NCBI RefSeq assembly: GCF_002937075.1 | Contig: NZ_NHSJ01000034.1 | Span: 1-64,000, forward strand | DNA from: Rhodoblastus sphagnicola | GTDB taxonomy: Bacteria > Pseudomonadota > Alphaproteobacteria > Rhizobiales > Beijerinckiaceae | Reading direction: 5' to 3' | Length of the DNA: 64,000 bases | Shown: positions 25,024-52,043 of the stretch, one piece after another | Layout: every line of letters starts with the position of its first letter | Numbering within the stretch: position 1 is the first letter of the stretch | Notes under the pieces: model-generated | What the model was told of the DNA's origin: nothing | What the model saw: the letters and a program-made list of their open reading frames with translations, nothing else | Databases searched by the model: none | Position numbers and translations under genes: made by a program

Positions 25024-26136
25024 TCACTGGCGAGCGGATCGTCCCTTCAATATGCCAAGCTTTGCAAGATGGGATCGCAACGTGTTTCGGCTGATTCCAA
25101 GCAGAGAGGCCGCTCGAACCTGATTTCCCTGGCTTTTCTCGTAGGCGATGGTGATAAGGGATCTGGTGACGTCTTCAAAGATGTTGGGCCGCTGCTCGTC
25201 GATCGCCGCCGCGATCGCGGTTTGTATTGAACCGGGCTGCGCAGTGGTCAGCCCGGAATTCTCCGACGTGAACGCGGGAAGGTTGAGATCGTCAGGGGTC
25301 AGCAGGCGCGCCTTCGACACGAGGAGCGCGTAGTGAATGACGTTTTCCAGCTCCCGGATGTTTCCGGGCCAGGGATAGCTTTCGAGTTTCCTGACCGCCG
25401 CTTCCGCCAGTTCGACGCGGCCCATGCCCAATTTTTCCGTATAGGTTTTCAGGAAATGTCGGGCGAGCGGCTCGATGTCGCGCGTCCGCTCCCGCAGCGG
25501 CGGCAGCGAGATGGACGCGACCTTGATCCTGTAGAACAGGTCTTCCCGGAACTTTCCCGCCGCCATGGCCTTGTCGACGTTCACATTGGTGGCGGTGATC
25601 AGACGCACGTCGATGGGAATGGCCTGGCGCGAGCCGACGCGAACGACTTCCCGCTGCTGCAGCACGCGCAACAGCTTGCATTGCAGATTGAGCGAGAGTT
25701 CGCCGATTTCATCGAGAAAGAGCGTGCCGTTGTTGGCGATTTCGAACCAGCCGGCGGTGGTGACGTGCGCGCCGGTGAAAGCGCCGCGCTGGTGCCCGAA
25801 CAATTCGCTCTCGGCGAGACTTTCGCACAGCGAAGCGCAATTGACCGCGACGAACGGCTGGCTCTTGCGCCGGCTCAGGTCGTGGAGGCGCCGGGCGGCG
25901 AGTTCCTTGCCCGTGCCGGTTTCGCCGACGATGAGGATGTTGGCGTCGCTGGGCGCCAGACATTCGATCTGCCGCGCGACCTCCCGGGATTTCGGATCTT
26001 CGAAGACAATCGCGCTCGCCGCGATGATGCGCGGGTTGGTTTGACTCCCGACCATCGCGACCAGTTCGCCCGAGGGCGCGCTTTCGAAGTCGCCGTCTGG
26101 CCGACCGGCCTTTTTCAAATGAGCTTGGGTTCGCAT
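25024..26136 (-). CDS. Sigma54-dependent transcriptional activator without sensory domain
   Basis: A 370-residue bacterial enhancer-binding protein. After a short N-terminal leader it has a complete AAA+ domain: Walker A GETGTGKE (71-78), the sigma54-contacting GAFTGA loop (118-123), Walker B LFLDEIGE (139-146) and WPGNIRELEN (256-265). A Fis-type helix-turn-helix is at about 338-362. There is no receiver, GAF or PAS domain, which recalls PspF, so control must come from a partner or from its own level. It is transcribed away from the ABC/GTPase/NifS/Fe-S cassette and its presumed target promoter is at 26254-26269. A second Met at residue 28 is a possible start. Confidence 0.9.
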   Translation of the reverse strand: MRTQAHLKKAGRPDGDFESAPSGELVAMVGSQTNPRIIAASAIVFEDPKSREVARQIECLAPSDANILIVGETGTGKELAARRLHDLSRRKSQPFVAVNCASLCESLAESELFGHQRGAFTGAHVTTAGWFEIANNGTLFLDEIGELSLNLQCKLLRVLQQREVVRVGSRQAIPIDVRLITATNVNVDKAMAAGKFREDLFYRIKVASISLPPLRERTRDIEPLARHFLKTYTEKLGMGRVELAEAAVRKLESYPWPGNIRELENVIHYALLVSKARLLTPDDLNLPAFTSENSGLTTAQPGSIQTAIAAAIDEQRPNIFEDVTRSLITIAYEKSQGNQVRAASLLGISRNTLRSHLAKLGILKGRSARQ

Positions 26137-26154
26137 GGGGCGCGATTCAAATCT

Positions 26155-26173
26155 CTGCTGGCTATATAGCAGG
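26155..26173. promoter_or_regulatory. Candidate upstream activator site
   Basis: A perfect 10-bp palindrome, GCTATATAGC (26161-26170), lies inside a wider CTGCT...AGCAG repeat about 85 bases upstream of the sigma54 promoter and just inside the intergenic region next to the activator gene. The distance and symmetry suit an enhancer for a Fis-type dimer. No NifA-type TGT-N10-ACA site is present in this region. Confidence 0.35.
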
Positions 26174-26253
26174 TATTGCTCTTATCTGCTGCTTTTGCAA
26201 CAATAATTTTCTCCATTTTGTTTAAAATACAAGAATATCAAAGTATTGCAACA

Positions 26254-26269
26254 TGGCCCGCTCCTTGCA
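26254..26269 (+). promoter_or_regulatory. Sigma54 promoter (-24/-12) of the cofactor cassette
   Basis: TGGCCCGCTCCTTGCA matches the consensus TGGCACG-N4-TTGCA at all but one position. GG is at 26255-26256 and GC at 26267-26268, the required 12-base offset. The expected start is near 26280, followed by AAGGAG at 26283-26288 and the ATG at 26296. Confidence 0.85.
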
Positions 26270-26295
26270 AACTCGTTGTGCAAAGGAGCTTTGGC

Positions 26296-27180
26296 ATGGC
26301 AAATCAGGCGTCGATCGACTGGAGTGGCGTGAACGGACGGGGTGGTCAGCTTTCCGCGAACAGCCCTTTGGATCAGGGTGGCCACCAGCAGAGCGTAATC
26401 CGCCAGGTCTCCATCATCGGAGGCAAGGGCCGCGATGGGCTTCACGACGCCATCGATCGCCTCGACCTGAACATGGGGGATGTCGTCAGCGTCGTCGGCC
26501 CGACCGGCTCGGGCAAGACGACCCTGATCAACGACATGGAATTGTTCGCCGACGGCGACACGCCGACCGGGCGTCGCATCCTGATCAACGGCGAGACGCC
26601 GCCGGAGGTTTTCCGGGACGATCCGTCGCGCAATCCGATCGCGCTCATCACGCAGCACACGTCGTTCCTGTCGGACCTTCCCGTCGACGTGTTTCTTCAC
26701 ACGCACGCCGGCATTCGGCGCTCATCGTCGCGCGAAGCCGATGAACTCGTGAGACAAACGCTCGATTTCGCCAATCAGCTCACGGGCGAGCCGATTTCGC
26801 TGTCCAGCAGCATGACGGAATTGTCGGGCGGCCAGACACGATCCCTGCTCATCGCCGACGCGACCATCATCTGCGACACGCCGATCGTCCTGCTCGACGA
26901 GGTCGAGAACGCCGGCATCAACCGCTCGCGCGCGCTGGAATTGTTGAGGGGATACAAGAAGATCTTCATCTTCGTCACCCATGACCCGCGCATCGCGCTG
27001 TTGTCGGATTACCGGATCATCCTGCGCGACGGCCGCATCGCCGACGTGCTCAAGACCGACGCGCGCGAGCGCGCGCTGGCGCCGACAGTCGCCCGCTTCG
27101 ACGATGTGCTTTCGGACATTCGCGACCGGCTGCGCCAGGGTCTGCGCATCGAAAACTTCGACTTCGGAGACGTGGCATGA
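26296..27180 (+). CDS. Stand-alone ABC-type ATPase of the sigma54-linked cassette
   Basis: A 294-residue soluble ABC ATPase. Walker A is GPTGSGKT (68-75), Q-loop Gln120, signature LSGGQ (176-180), Walker B PIVLLDE (196-202) and the switch His229. An unusual 60-residue N-terminal extension rich in Gly, Ser and Gln precedes it. No permease is encoded nearby, so it is unlikely to be a conventional transporter. It is the first gene after the sigma54 promoter, with AAGGAG seven bases before the ATG, and overlaps the GTPase gene by four bases. An ATPase that drives assembly or reduction of a metal cofactor is an inference from the neighbours. Confidence 0.82.
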   Translation: MANQASIDWSGVNGRGGQLSANSPLDQGGHQQSVIRQVSIIGGKGRDGLHDAIDRLDLNMGDVVSVVGPTGSGKTTLINDMELFADGDTPTGRRILINGETPPEVFRDDPSRNPIALITQHTSFLSDLPVDVFLHTHAGIRRSSSREADELVRQTLDFANQLTGEPISLSSSMTELSGGQTRSLLIADATIICDTPIVLLDEVENAGINRSRALELLRGYKKIFIFVTHDPRIALLSDYRIILRDGRIADVLKTDARERALAPTVARFDDVLSDIRDRLRQGLRIENFDFGDVA

Positions 27181-27878
27181 AACTGGCCATTTGCGCGGGA
27201 ACCGCGACCACCGGAAAATCGGCGCTGCTGCATCACGTCATTCCGCGCCTCCAACGGCGCGGCTGGTCGGTGGCCTTCCTCAAGATCGACGTGCAATATG
27301 CCGACGAGGACGAGCGCTTCGCCAGGGACTTCTCCATTCCCACGCGAAAAGTCTATTCCGGCGACCTCTGCCCCGATCATTGCAACGTCATGGTGCTCGG
27401 CGACGCCGTGCAGTGGGCGGAAAAGTCCGGCGCCGACATCCTTCTGGTCGAGACCGCCGGCCTGTGCCTGCGCTGCGCGCCCTATGTCGATCGCGGTCTG
27501 GGCATTGTCGTCGTGGAGGCGACCAGCGGCATGAATCTGCCGCGCAAGATCGGCCCGATCCTGTCGCTCGCCGACATCGCCGTCGTCACCAAGATCGACC
27601 GCGTTTCCCAGGCCGAGCGCGAAGTGTTCCGCGCCCGCATCATGGAGGCCGCGCCGCAGGTGCGCATTCGCGAGGTCAATGCGCTGCATGGCATCGGCGT
27701 CGATCCGATCGCCGACGCCATCGCGAGGCAGCCCGACATCGACGCCGAGCTGACGCTGCGCGGCAATCCGCCGGTGGGGACCTGCACGATCTGCGTCGGC
27801 AAGAAGACCATCGGCTGGCAATCGCATTTCGGCGTCGTGCGCGCGCTCGAAAACCAGACGTTCTATCGGGGCGAGTGA
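27177..27878 (+). CDS. HypB/UreG-like GTP-binding protein
   Basis: A 233-residue SIMIBI-class GTPase. The P-loop is GTATTGKS (8-15), and the guanine motif appears as TKID (138-141). Three Cys-containing motifs look metal-binding: GDLCPDHC (62-69), ETAGLCLRC (92-100) and CTIC (203-206). HypB and UreG use similar GTPase cores and Cys/His sites to deliver nickel. The gene is coupled to the ABC gene by ATGA and followed at once by the cysteine desulfurase. It is probably a metallochaperone; the metal and client are not known from this window. Confidence 0.8.
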   Translation: MKLAICAGTATTGKSALLHHVIPRLQRRGWSVAFLKIDVQYADEDERFARDFSIPTRKVYSGDLCPDHCNVMVLGDAVQWAEKSGADILLVETAGLCLRCAPYVDRGLGIVVVEATSGMNLPRKIGPILSLADIAVVTKIDRVSQAEREVFRARIMEAAPQVRIREVNALHGIGVDPIADAIARQPDIDAELTLRGNPPVGTCTICVGKKTIGWQSHFGVVRALENQTFYRGE

Positions 27879-27879
27879 C

Positions 27880-29043
27880 GTGACCATCTATTTCGACAAT
27901 TCGGCGACGACGCCGGTCGATCCCCGCGTCGCCGAGGCGATGGCGCCGTGGCATTCGGCGGCGTTCGGCAATCCGTCGAGCCTGCACGCCCTCGGCCGCG
28001 CCGCGCGCGAGGCCGTGGAGGCCGCGCGCGAACAGGTGGCGGCGCTGATCGGCGCGAAGGCAAAGGAGATCGTCTTCGTCGCCAGCGGCACCGAGGCCGA
28101 CAACCTCGCGCTGGCCGGCGCGTTCCGCGCATCGCCCTCGGACCGCGATGGCGTCATCGTTTCCGCAATCGAGCATCCGGCCGTGCTGGAGACGGCCAAG
28201 GCCTTGCGCAGCCAAGGCGCAGCCCTGACACTCGCGCCCGTCGACTCCGACGGTTTGGCTGATACGGACTGGTTTCGTCGTCACGTGAGCGCGACGACCC
28301 GGATCGTGTCGCTGATGGCGGCCAACAATGTGATCGGAACGGTTCAGCCGTTCGCCGAAGTGGCCGCGATCGCCCGGCAGGCCGGCGCCTTGTTCCATAC
28401 CGATGCGGTTCAGGCGGCCGGACGGATTCCCCTCGACGTGCGCGCCGCGCCAATCGATCTGCTCTCGATTTCGGCGCACAAACTTCATGGGCCCAAGGGC
28501 GTCGGCGCCTTGTACGTCCGCGACGGCGTCGCGCTCGCGCCGATCATTCACGGCGGCGGCCAGGAACGCGGCCTGCGCTCGGCGACCGAGAATGTCGCTG
28601 GAATCGTCGGCTTCGGATGGGCCGCGGAACTCGCGCGCGAGCAAGGCGCGGCGGACAACGTCCGCCTCGTCGCGCTGCGCGAGCGGCTGATCGAGGGCGT
28701 GTTCGCGGCCTGCCCGCAAGCCTATGTCATCGGGCATCGCCACCGGCGGCTGCCCGGCCATGTCGCCCTGGCGTTTTCCGGCCAGGAAGGCGAAGCCATC
28801 CGGCTGATGCTGGCGCTCGACGAAGCGGGCGTCGCCGCATCGACCGGCAGCGCGTGCAGCGCCTCCCATGCCGACGAGCCCTCCTACGTGCTGCGGGCGC
28901 TGGGGTTCGATCCCTTCAGGGCGCGCGGCGCCCTGCGGCTGACGCTGGGCCGGTTCAACACGGAAGCAGAAGTCGATCGCGTCGTTTCGGTTTTGCCAGG
29001 ACTGGTCGGCGGCCTGCGCCGCATCGCGACGGCGCGGCGTTGA
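27880..29043 (+). CDS. Cysteine desulfurase, NifS/IscS family
   Basis: A 387-residue PLP enzyme that mobilises sulfur from cysteine. The opening YFDNSATTPVD, His99 (IEHPAV), the Schiff-base Lys201 (SAHKLHGPKG) and the active Cys326 (STGSACSASHADEPS) are all present. The start is GTG at 27880, one base after the GTPase stop codon. Its place within a cassette of ATPase, GTPase and Fe-S protein points to a dedicated sulfur supply for one cofactor rather than the general Isc or Suf system. Confidence 0.93.
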   Translation: MTIYFDNSATTPVDPRVAEAMAPWHSAAFGNPSSLHALGRAAREAVEAAREQVAALIGAKAKEIVFVASGTEADNLALAGAFRASPSDRDGVIVSAIEHPAVLETAKALRSQGAALTLAPVDSDGLADTDWFRRHVSATTRIVSLMAANNVIGTVQPFAEVAAIARQAGALFHTDAVQAAGRIPLDVRAAPIDLLSISAHKLHGPKGVGALYVRDGVALAPIIHGGGQERGLRSATENVAGIVGFGWAAELAREQGAADNVRLVALRERLIEGVFAACPQAYVIGHRHRRLPGHVALAFSGQEGEAIRLMLALDEAGVAASTGSACSASHADEPSYVLRALGFDPFRARGALRLTLGRFNTEAEVDRVVSVLPGLVGGLRRIATARR

Positions 29044-29070
29044 ATTTCCAATTTCGAGAGGATGAAGGCC

Positions 29071-29754
29071 ATGTTGTCTCAAACCGTCGAGCTTCCGGGC
29101 GCCAATTGCGGCGTCTGCGGCTATCGCACCTGCGACGCCTTGGCGGCGGAGCTTGAAAGAAAGCCGGACTTGATCAATCGCTGCCTCACGCGAGCGGCCA
29201 ACGTCATCGAACCCGCCGACAAGGCCGTTTCCGCCCGTTCGCACATCGCGGAAGATCTGGATCGACCGGCGCAAGACTCGCGCGCGACCTTGCGCGACAG
29301 TCTGGATCGCGAGTTCGACTTCTACCTGGAGCACTTTCCCGAGGACCCCGGTCCGAAGGAGATCATCATCCCGCACAATCCCATGCTGACGCGAGAGCTG
29401 GAGATTTCCGTCGGCGACCTGATGGTGGGCCGCCCCCTGGGCATGTCCTGCGGTTGCCCGATCACGCATTGCGGCGTCGTTGTCGAGGTCGATCGCCGCA
29501 CCGGCGTGATCGTCTGGTGCGTCACGGGTCCGCTGGGTCCGCGCAACAAAGGCTTCAAGGATATCGGCTATTACATTGCCGAGGGTTACGAGGGGCTGAT
29601 CACGGACGCGCGCGTCGATATCAAGATCGGCATGCGCTATTTCTTCCAGCCGCGCAGATGTATGCTGCAATGGCGCCACAGCGGCCTGGTGAATTACATC
29701 AACAAATCGAAGGATGGCCTTCAAGTTCGACTCGAAGGCCTCTGGATCGGTTGA
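29071..29754 (+). CDS. 4Fe-4S domain protein of the sigma54-linked cassette
   Basis: A 227-residue protein. The N-terminus carries C-x2-C-x4-C-x16-C (13, 16, 21, 38; context GANCGVCGYRTC), the 4Fe-4S pattern of the PF04060 domain also seen in RnfB and the CODH/acetyl-CoA synthase corrinoid subunit. A second region has MSCGCPITHC (Cys127, 129, 134) and further Cys residues in VWCVTG and RRCMLQW, so a second metal site is likely. The start at 29071 is chosen because GAGAGG is then at a proper distance; an ATG three codons upstream is too close to it. It ends the cassette. No exact function can be assigned. Confidence 0.78.
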   Translation: MLSQTVELPGANCGVCGYRTCDALAAELERKPDLINRCLTRAANVIEPADKAVSARSHIAEDLDRPAQDSRATLRDSLDREFDFYLEHFPEDPGPKEIIIPHNPMLTRELEISVGDLMVGRPLGMSCGCPITHCGVVVEVDRRTGVIVWCVTGPLGPRNKGFKDIGYYIAEGYEGLITDARVDIKIGMRYFFQPRRCMLQWRHSGLVNYINKSKDGLQVRLEGLWIG

Positions 29755-50475: not shown

Positions 50476-50778
50476 TCAGGGCGCGGGGGGCGCGGGAAAA
50501 TCCCCGCTGGCCTGACGCCGCTTCCGCGCCGGCGTGAACGCCCACCAATCCAAAGCCTCGCCCGTCTTCGCCTGATGGATAGCCGCCGCGAAGACGTCGT
50601 GAACGCAGGGATCATGCCGTCGCCCGGTCATCAGGCAGAGCCGCGCATAAAGGCTGTCGGCGTCTTCGCGCGCAAGCTGGCTGACACTGGCGATGCCGAG
50701 CAGCTTGAAATCAGCCAGCGCGGCCTTGCCGACATTGCGCAGGCGCGCCAGCGGGGCCATTTCCGCTTTCCTGGGCAT
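50476..50778 (-). CDS. Helix-hairpin-helix protein (Cdd1/pathogenicity-locus family)
   Basis: A 100-residue protein with LARLRNVGKAALADFKLLGIASVSQLAREDADSLYARLC followed by MTGRRHDPCVHDVFAAAIH, the pattern of the Cdd1 family, whose core is a helix-hairpin-helix fold that often binds DNA. Its role is not known. The ATG at 50778 has GAGGAAG upstream; a TTG nine codons earlier is open. It is convergent with carA and flanked by two copies of the carA 3' end, so it looks inserted. Confidence 0.75.
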   Translation of the reverse strand: MPRKAEMAPLARLRNVGKAALADFKLLGIASVSQLAREDADSLYARLCLMTGRRHDPCVHDVFAAAIHQAKTGEALDWWAFTPARKRRQASGDFPAPPAP

Positions 50779-50820
50779 GGGCGACAGCTTCCTCTTATGT
50801 TCCAATCGAGATCGCCATGA

Positions 50821-50856: not shown

Positions 50857-51153
50857 TCAAGATAATTTCGACGGCCACTCCTGAGCGGCGTGCATGACTG
50901 TCAGAATGTCAACGGCGTCCGGCGTGACGCGATAGGCGACGATGTAAGGAATGTCGGCGAAAACCAACTCGCGGGTTTCCGCAATCCGACCGGGTCGTCC
51001 CATGGCCGGGCGCTCCGCGAGATTGTCCACCGCTGAAACGATCCGCGCGATGACACGGGTGGCCGCGTCGGGACTGTCCTGCGCGATGGAGCCGCCAAGC
51101 TGATCGAGCCGCCGCAAGGCGCGCTTCGTCCACCGGACGACGCGGCTGTTCAT
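50857..51153 (-). CDS. RelE/ParE-family toxin
   Basis: A 98-residue toxin of the ParE/RelE fold: WTKRALRRLDQLGGSIAQDSPDAATRVIARI, PAMGRPGRIAETRELVF, and the C-terminal PYIVAYRVTPDAVDILTVMHAAQEWP. The ending with a conserved Arg/His-rich strand is typical of ParE. The ATG overlaps the antitoxin stop (ATGA), antitoxin first, as is usual. It is probably a gyrase poison or mRNA interferase; which cannot be told here. Confidence 0.88.
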   Translation of the reverse strand: MNSRVVRWTKRALRRLDQLGGSIAQDSPDAATRVIARIVSAVDNLAERPAMGRPGRIAETRELVFADIPYIVAYRVTPDAVDILTVMHAAQEWPSKLS

Positions 51154-51395
51154 GACGGAAGGACGGGATTCACGTACTTTCCAACGACATGCGCAATATC
51201 GGCCGAGGTCGCGAACTCGTCCCGCTCGGCCTCGGCCAGACCAGCCTCGATTTCAGCGAGTTGCCAGGCTTCCCGCGCCACAAAATCCTCGATGGCCCGC
51301 GCCGCGACATAGGACCGAGGCCGCGCCATTTTTTCCGCCAGCTTGTCAAGCTTCTCGGCTGTTTCGTCCGGCACGCGAACGGTAAAGGCGGTCAT
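51150..51395 (-). CDS. Ribbon-helix-helix antitoxin (CopG-like)
   Basis: An 81-residue antitoxin. The N-terminal ribbon-helix-helix is MTAFTVRVPDETAEKLDKLAEKMARPRSYVAARAIEDFV, followed by an acidic helix for toxin binding (EIEAGLAEAERDEFA). The start at 51395 has GAGGAT upstream; an ATG five codons earlier lacks a site. It neutralises the downstream toxin and likely represses the pair. Confidence 0.88.
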   Translation of the reverse strand: MTAFTVRVPDETAEKLDKLAEKMARPRSYVAARAIEDFVAREAWQLAEIEAGLAEAERDEFATSADIAHVVGKYVNPVLPS

Positions 51396-51576
51396 GGCCC
51401 GCATCCTCATGGGTTCAATGTGAATGTGAGCGCATCGCTATGGTTCGTCAAGGTTTGATCCCGCGCGCCCGACAAAGCCGTCGGACGGCGGACAGCGCCT
51501 GTCGGCTTCGCCTCCCGATTGCGCGAGCCGCAACACGAATTTCGTCGCGCAAGCCCGCGCCCGCCGGAGTTCGCAA

Positions 51577-51592
51577 AGGCACGCCTCTTGCT
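51577..51592 (+). promoter_or_regulatory. Sigma54 promoter (-24/-12) of the FeSII-like gene
   Basis: AGGCACGCCTCTTGCT matches TGGCACG-N4-TTGCT at all but the first position. GG is at 51578-51579 and GC at 51590-51591, the required 12-base offset. It is 50 bases upstream of the ferredoxin ATG. No TGT-N10-ACA NifA site was found in the 170 bases upstream. Confidence 0.75.
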
Positions 51593-51641
51593 GCCCGCGC
51601 GTTGGGGACGTTCGTCTCCGACAAACCCGAGGGACAACCCA

Positions 51642-52043
51642 ATGGCCAATGTGACCTTTACCTCGCCGAAACTGTCTCGCGATGTGACCGTTTACGCCGT
51701 GGCGGGCGCGCGCGGCACGCTGCTCGAGCTCGCCAAGGAACACAAGGTTCCGATTCCCTTCGACTGTCAGGACGGCGAATGCGGCTCCTGCCTGGTCGAA
51801 GTGTCGATCCTGAGCAAGACGCCGCGCGCTATTTCCCTGACCGAGAAAGAAAAGGAAGTGTTGAAGCAGATCGGCAAGATTTCCACCGTGGAAGTCGCCA
51901 ATGCCGAGGTTAACGACATGCCCCCCCATTACCGGCTCGCCTGCCAATACATCGTTCGCGACGAGGACATCATCGTGAAGTTCGAAGGCGACGAGAGCAC
52001 GCCAGTCAAGGTGAGCAAGTCGTCCGCCACGGTCATCAGCTGA
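51642..52043 (+). CDS. 2Fe-2S ferredoxin, FeSII (Shethna protein II)-like
   Basis: A 133-residue plant-type 2Fe-2S protein. The cluster ligands are in PFDCQDGECGSCLV and YRLACQYIV. Between them is a long insert (LTEKEKEVLKQIGKISTVE..NAEVNDMPPHYR) that ordinary ferredoxins lack but the Azotobacter FeSII protein has; the opening TFTSP and the VAGARGTLL segment also agree with FeSII. FeSII binds oxidised nitrogenase and shields it from oxygen. The start at 51642 has AGGGAC upstream, and a sigma54 promoter lies at 51577-51592. No nif gene is in the window. Confidence 0.82.
   Translation: MANVTFTSPKLSRDVTVYAVAGARGTLLELAKEHKVPIPFDCQDGECGSCLVEVSILSKTPRAISLTEKEKEVLKQIGKISTVEVANAEVNDMPPHYRLACQYIVRDEDIIVKFEGDESTPVKVSKSSATVIS

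Follow-up and report, generated by a model that had tools for sequence, protein, structure and literature searches.

A homologue of Azotobacter FeSII with a conserved sigma54 promoter in Rhodoblastus sphagnicola, and its proposed ferritin-like partner

Known FeSII systems

In Azotobacter vinelandii, FeSII (Shethna protein II) binds the MoFe and Fe proteins of nitrogenase in an inactive, oxygen-stable complex; the 2024 paper describing this states that protection by FeSII is demonstrated for no more than two species, both of Azotobacter (PMC11301756). A Lys pair and a His of the A. vinelandii protein (K14/K15 and H55) are called important in a further source (PMC3045800). In Rhodobacter capsulatus, a purple bacterium, a fesII-like gene encodes the [2Fe-2S] protein FdxD (FdV), which is NifA-dependent and is said to protect the Mo-nitrogenase. 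A ferredoxin termed 'fer2' is given NifA sites in Rhizobiales and Rhodospirillales in a paper on the NifA regulon (PMC4999443).

The new point here is the ferritin-like fusion and partner of FeSII. Neither the fusion nor the partner was found in print in the open-licence literature searched, where the top-ranked paper naming both FeSII and ferritin uses FeSII for a metal cluster. The gene described below lies in a window of 64,000 nucleotides (the whole stretch of R. sphagnicola DNA that was analysed). It codes for a true homologue of FeSII in a nitrogen-fixing organism, and its sigma54 promoter is conserved.

The FeSII protein of the window

The coding features are as follows.

51642 to 52043, plus strand: ORF of an FeSII-family [2Fe-2S] ferredoxin, 133 aa, identified by phmmer, Pfam, alignment, tree and model fold
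51996 to 52040, plus strand: 15-residue C-terminal tail beyond the ferredoxin domain, of low confidence in the model

The ORF starts at ATG 51642, and its stop codon ends at 52043. A longer form from TTG 51519, present in the ORF list, was rejected: in a related locus (L064) the open frame starts one codon before the matching ATG, and the promoter would fall inside the longer form.

Assignment of the protein to the FeSII family, which the first-pass annotation had proposed from the letters, is borne out by sequence, tree and model fold. Among solved structures, phmmer finds three chains, all of Azotobacter FeSII (9iey, 4e-34; 5ffi, 1.3e-33; 9cu1_N, 6.7e-32), with matches spanning residues 1–117, and beyond these chains no match to solved structures is better than 0.0018. 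The Pfam Fer2 domain is matched at 1.7e-9. Alignment with A. vinelandii FeSII gives 51% identity; the four cluster cysteines (C42, C47, C50 and C101) are invariant, and the long loop that separates the third cysteine from the fourth (residues 59–96) has one single-residue gap relative to Azotobacter FeSII. In the AlphaFold2 model (mean pLDDT 74.9, pTM 0.66, with residues 119–132 of the tail below 50), helices 68–76 and 82–90 lie within this loop over the cluster. The model matches 9cu1_N, the FeSII chain of a filamentous MoFeP:FeP:FeSII complex, with an E value of 1.1e-14 and TM scores of 0.80/0.87.

In a tree of 112 rows, an analysis that had been suggested as a check on the assignment, the window protein falls inside the FeSII clade and not outside it. 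It groups with three Rhodoblastus acidophilus copies (94/99), and the 99-row clade that unites it with both Azotobacter FeSII chains is separated with support of 100/100 from an outgroup of 13 ferredoxins, of which 12 have nifD within 7 kb. The tree rests on few columns and leaves many forks open; no plant-type or Isc ferredoxins are among its rows, which represent 13 of the 16 outgroup-type genomes and do not include the 12 phylum loci L140–L151.

Likeness to the FeSII of A. vinelandii and A. beijerinckii (5ffi, 9cu0-2, 9iey) consists in the homology of residues 1–117, the cluster cysteines, the two-helix loop and the model fold. The window protein differs from Azotobacter FeSII in that the identity is 51%, the Lys pair and the His are replaced, an extra tail is present, the gene has a sigma54 promoter, and the protein belongs to a clade in which fusion to, or pairing with, a ferritin-like protein is frequent. 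The residues V, T and I stand in the alignment at the positions of the Lys pair and the His, which were matched by the KK pair and the His because the numbering of the source is one off from a count from the first Met (PMC3045800). This replacement counts against a simple transfer of the Azotobacter mechanism. The three residues are implicated in nitrogenase binding in A. vinelandii and are not strictly family-defining; the Lys pair occurs in none of ten aligned relatives and the His in three of them.

The same replacement would fit a protein that is no shield at all, namely an electron-transfer ferredoxin of the nif regulon feeding nitrogenase, cofactor assembly or the ferritin-like partner. 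The [2Fe-2S] ferredoxin fold is consistent with such a role, and the fusion of relatives to a ferritin-like domain is what might be expected of a protein that supplies electrons to a diiron centre. However, the fold search places 14 FeSII chains on top, all at 8.1e-11 or better, with the next ferredoxin at 1.1e-5. In addition, the R. capsulatus sources list FdD as a non-donor to Mo-nitrogenase in vitro and describe growth on Fe-nitrogenase that is not slowed by FdD deletion. A purely electron-transferring function is rather unlikely.

Promoter and candidate NifA sites

Three upstream features were recognized.

51577 to 51591, plus strand: sigma54 (-24/-12) promoter AGGCACG-CCTC-TTGC, one mismatch to TGGCACG-N4-TTGC, conserved
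51520 to 51535, plus strand: candidate NifA activator site of degenerate form (TGT-N10-ACA with one mismatch), weak alone
51479 to 51494, plus strand: another such degenerate candidate, CGT-N10-ACA, likewise with one mismatch

The -24/-12 site had been placed 50 bases upstream of the gene, and the distance from the end of the site to ATG 51642 is indeed 50 bases. The window holds four sites of that score, the FeSII site among them. The site is above chance, as none of 300 single-base shuffles of the 300 upstream bases reaches its score and as it is conserved and aligned in the five other Rhodoblastus loci. In all six loci it starts 63–73 bases before the ATG, and GGCA, a following G and TTGCT are invariant. 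Among the 80 nearest named orthologues, 58 have a site scoring at least 13.5 within 300 bp, versus 29 of 466 other predicted ORFs of the same loci; the sigma54 weights and the 13.5 cut are the author's own, and the background comprises ORFs of 150 aa or more picked by a simple rule.

The candidate NifA site nearer to the promoter has a one-mismatch counterpart at the equivalent position in each of the five other short loci of Rhodoblastus, and the second is also present in L060, L061 and L062 and absent from L063 and L064. An exact TGT-N10-ACA was not found upstream of the window gene, and only one-mismatch versions occur there and in the R. acidophilus-type short forms. Upstream of the orthologues, exact NifA-type sites occur in 39 of 79 cases, versus 4.0 expected from shuffles.

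Sigma54 control of FeSII is not universal, because 22 of the 80 orthologues stay below the site score and because the fused FeSII genes of Rhodomicrobium have neither a sigma54 nor a NifA-type site within 1 kb. The Rhodomicrobium-type fused genes (L024–L027, L077 and L084) share an upstream near-palindrome, TTACACTTAGTGTAA, perhaps a site of another regulator.

Co-occurrence with nitrogenase

The organism has nitrogenase, whose absence would have spoken against the FeSII assignment in the first-pass annotation: NifD, VnfD and AnfD are over the cut-offs in the window genome, indicating Mo, V and Fe-only nitrogenases, and NifA is over its cut-off as well. In this 5.09-Mb genome a single FeSII was found, on contig C34. 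The description of the gene as standing alone, outside any nif cluster, holds within the window, where neither the NifH family nor the NifD model has a match, but not as an oddity, since this is the rule among the nearest relatives. NifH and NifD matches lie on the same 131-kb contig, with nifD at 125236–126645, about 73 kb downstream of FeSII. A nif structural gene is found within 6 kb, or within the shorter stretch available, in two of the 80 named loci, some of which end early at contig ends so that such linkage is partly invisible there. The R. capsulatus fdxD gene, unlike the window gene, reportedly lies directly upstream of nifHDK, as Hoffmann is said to have described in 2014.

In a sample of 397 genomes of the order, an FeSII homologue (threshold 1e-10) is present in 33, all of which have nifD over the cut-off, whereas nifD is over the cut-off in 67 of the 397 (Fisher 8e-30). 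In a phylum sample of 398 genomes, 14 have a homologue and 41 have nifD, with an overlap of 13 of the 14; the exception, G455, has a weaker match to the nifD model, read as the nifE kind. Two genomes (G000 and G238) are in both samples, and the genomes are kin and not independent, so that the Fisher values overstate the case.

As the Vnf and Anf systems are present and FeSII was found in single copy, the protein might protect all three nitrogenases, or mainly the alternative ones, and not specifically the Mo-nitrogenase. This is quite improbable: Mo-type nifD is present in all 33 homologue-bearing genomes of the order, and FdD of R. capsulatus is implicated for the Mo and not the Fe enzyme.

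Ferritin-like fusion in relatives

In 74 of the 80 nearest named orthologues, the FeSII half is followed by a ferritin-like half, giving proteins of 286–311 aa (two are cut by a contig end). The six short forms are five from Rhodoblastus and one from Pinisolibacter. These 80 are the best 80 of 242 confirmed orthologues, so that the fused share is biased to near relatives; in the less biased order sample, 8 of 17 FeSII-clade genomes have the fused form. In the fusion proteins of Methylocystis, Rhodopseudomonas, Rhodomicrobium, Novosphingobium and others, the FeSII half is 63–73% identical to the window protein. Like the window gene, their genes mostly have a sigma54 site and rarely have nif structural genes within 6 kb; unlike the window protein, they have about 165 extra residues related to PDB 2oh3 (tested on L092). 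Two of the alignments used (A2 and A3) hold 48 sequences each, those of A3 being 48 of the 74 fused proteins.

The second half matches Pfam Rubrerythrin in the two fused proteins tested (5.9e-12 and 1.8e-6), and that of L092 matches 2oh3 by sequence at 3.4e-18. In a fold search with a fused model (pTM 0.48), 2oh3 at Z 16.6 is the match relied on, ferritin rows at Z of about 14 being barely above the chance level for helical bundles. A second ferritin-like gene follows within 1 kb downstream on the same strand in 43 of the 74 fused loci; among the others, five have a ferritin-like gene elsewhere in the locus (one overlaps the end of the fused gene), two loci break off too early for a judgement and 24 have none. 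The fused rows form one tree group of 82 (81/59), suggesting that the fusion may have arisen once.

The window copy, at 133 aa, is unfused, and its 15-residue tail sits where the linker and the ferritin-like domain occur in many relatives. No ferritin-like remnant was found downstream of it by inspection of three frames by eye and by a profile run on the window ORFs. The prevalence of fusion among the best 80 orthologues and the position of the tail at the linker start might indicate that the gene was once fused, shed its ferritin-like domain and can now be dispensed with. Such a loss is very unlikely, given that the five other short Rhodoblastus copies have the same 133-aa form with the promoter kept, that the tree, with the root used, needs one change, a gain of fusion (fused group 81/59), and that Azotobacter FeSII is unfused. 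Two strains, Rhodoblastus sp. 17X3 (L063 and L092) and BP08 (L064 and L089), have both short and fused FeSII, and each of these genomes has two separate ferritin-like genes.

The separate ferritin-like partner

The window genome encodes a separate ferritin-like protein of 157 aa (C4:7174–7644), on another contig than FeSII. Close orthologues of this partner are present in 17 genomes of the order sample, and 16 of the 17 FeSII-clade genomes have one, whereas it is absent from all 16 genomes whose ferredoxin is of the outgroup kind (Fisher 2.5e-13 among the 67 genomes with nifD). Close orthologues are matches at 3e-59 or better, a limit chosen once a gap in the list had become apparent; weaker matches occur in 14 further genomes. 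The exceptions are G313, which has FeSII without the partner, and G296, which has the partner and in which FeSII was not found; the latter genome is 83% complete, and the partner match starts at base 114 of its contig. The partner was also found in all five other Rhodoblastus genomes tested.

The partner lies beside FeSII in 10 of the 16 genomes and apart from it in six, including the window genome. In six order genomes with short FeSII (G027, G165, G249, G137, G324 and G266), a separate ferritin-like gene comes next, with 72–106 bases between the matches, and in G027, G249 and G266 nifD is nearby on the same contig. RPA1927/1928 of R. palustris are, we presume, such an FeSII/ferritin-like pair under NifA control. 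Comparison of the partner contig with four fused-gene loci for synteny matched the partner gene alone. No good sigma54 site was found before the separate partner in the window genome, the five Rhodoblastus genomes or three Rhodomicrobium-type genomes; in G337, whose partner and FeSII genes are on separate contigs, the partner is preceded by a perfect sigma54 site and by three NifA-type sites.

The residues E15, H51, E105, E135 and H138 are kept in all 52 separate copies and in 70–74 of the 74 fused ones. They are residues of the kinds that bind iron. When the ligand positions of rubrerythrins are used for comparison, however, the second-helix Glu is a Ser where it was inspected.

Proposed role

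The gene probably encodes a NifA/sigma54-controlled FeSII that protects nitrogenase from oxygen in phototrophic Rhodoblastus. Family, model fold, promoter conservation and co-occurrence with nifD and with the partner are the parts of this explanation that rest on results; oxygen protection by the window protein is most likely by homology to A. vinelandii FeSII. When N2 fixation is on, NifA and sigma54 would direct the synthesis of FeSII as a presumed [2Fe-2S] dimer. A rise in oxygen would oxidise the FeSII cluster, and the oxidised protein would then lock the MoFe and Fe proteins into a complex that is inactive but stable to oxygen; once oxygen falls, nitrogenase would be set free again. Within its clade, FeSII would work together with the ferritin-like protein, to which it is joined in many relatives and whose gene lies apart in the window genome. 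Because of the fusion and the co-occurrence with FeSII, a role is suggested also for the partner, which might scavenge oxygen or peroxide, or else pass electrons to or from FeSII.

A more tentative extension, possible but short of probable, is a two-part device in many alpha- and betaproteobacterial diazotrophs, in which FeSII docks on nitrogenase and the ferritin-like diiron protein removes oxygen or peroxide there or resets oxidised FeSII. If so, shielding of nitrogenase would be coupled to enzymatic oxygen removal, and the two halves would be separate genes in the R. acidophilus group. A conserved, mostly sigma54-controlled FeSII in many diazotrophs, often fused to or accompanied by a ferritin-like protein, would make oxygen shielding a common strategy. 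The ferritin-like protein would then be a further candidate for testing, which could also help in the engineering of nitrogenases that function in air.

Genomic neighbourhood

The window FeSII is 88–92% identical to the copies of three R. acidophilus genomes, and most genes around it are about 75–90% identical to their R. acidophilus counterparts. The toxin–antitoxin pair noted beside the gene was confirmed as a ParE toxin (2e-18) and an RHH antitoxin (2.5e-6), located upstream of FeSII on the opposite strand (50857–51410, minus). This pair is incidental and comes and goes beside a fixed FeSII, because the toxin was matched near only one of the five other Rhodoblastus short copies, that of R. 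acidophilus DSM 142; the RHH antitoxin was traced only via an overlapping ORF on the other strand. A Cdd1 (PF11731) protein (50476–50805, minus) adjoins the pair; of the five other short loci of Rhodoblastus, two have a match to it. Downstream of FeSII lie an LPG-synthase-like membrane protein and, further on, a sensor kinase and phosphate-transport genes, these last identified by ORF sequence only.

Elsewhere in the window (25024–29754), a sigma54 activator (25024–26136, minus) stands opposite a gene block that has a -24/-12 site at 26254–26268 and includes an ABC ATPase, a CobW/HypB-like GTPase, a class-V aminotransferase (cysteine desulfurase-like) and a PF04060 Fe-S protein. The first-pass annotation had linked this 26–29 kb cassette to a low-oxygen, nitrogen-linked state; no tie to nitrogenase was found for it in this analysis. 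Its -24/-12 site ends just 9 bases before the start taken at 26278, and a later start may apply. On contig C18 of G000 (L013:5952–9806), a nitrogenase-like set combines a NifH-like protein over the nifH cut-off with two adjoining NifD/K-like subunits that are far below the nitrogenase cut-offs.
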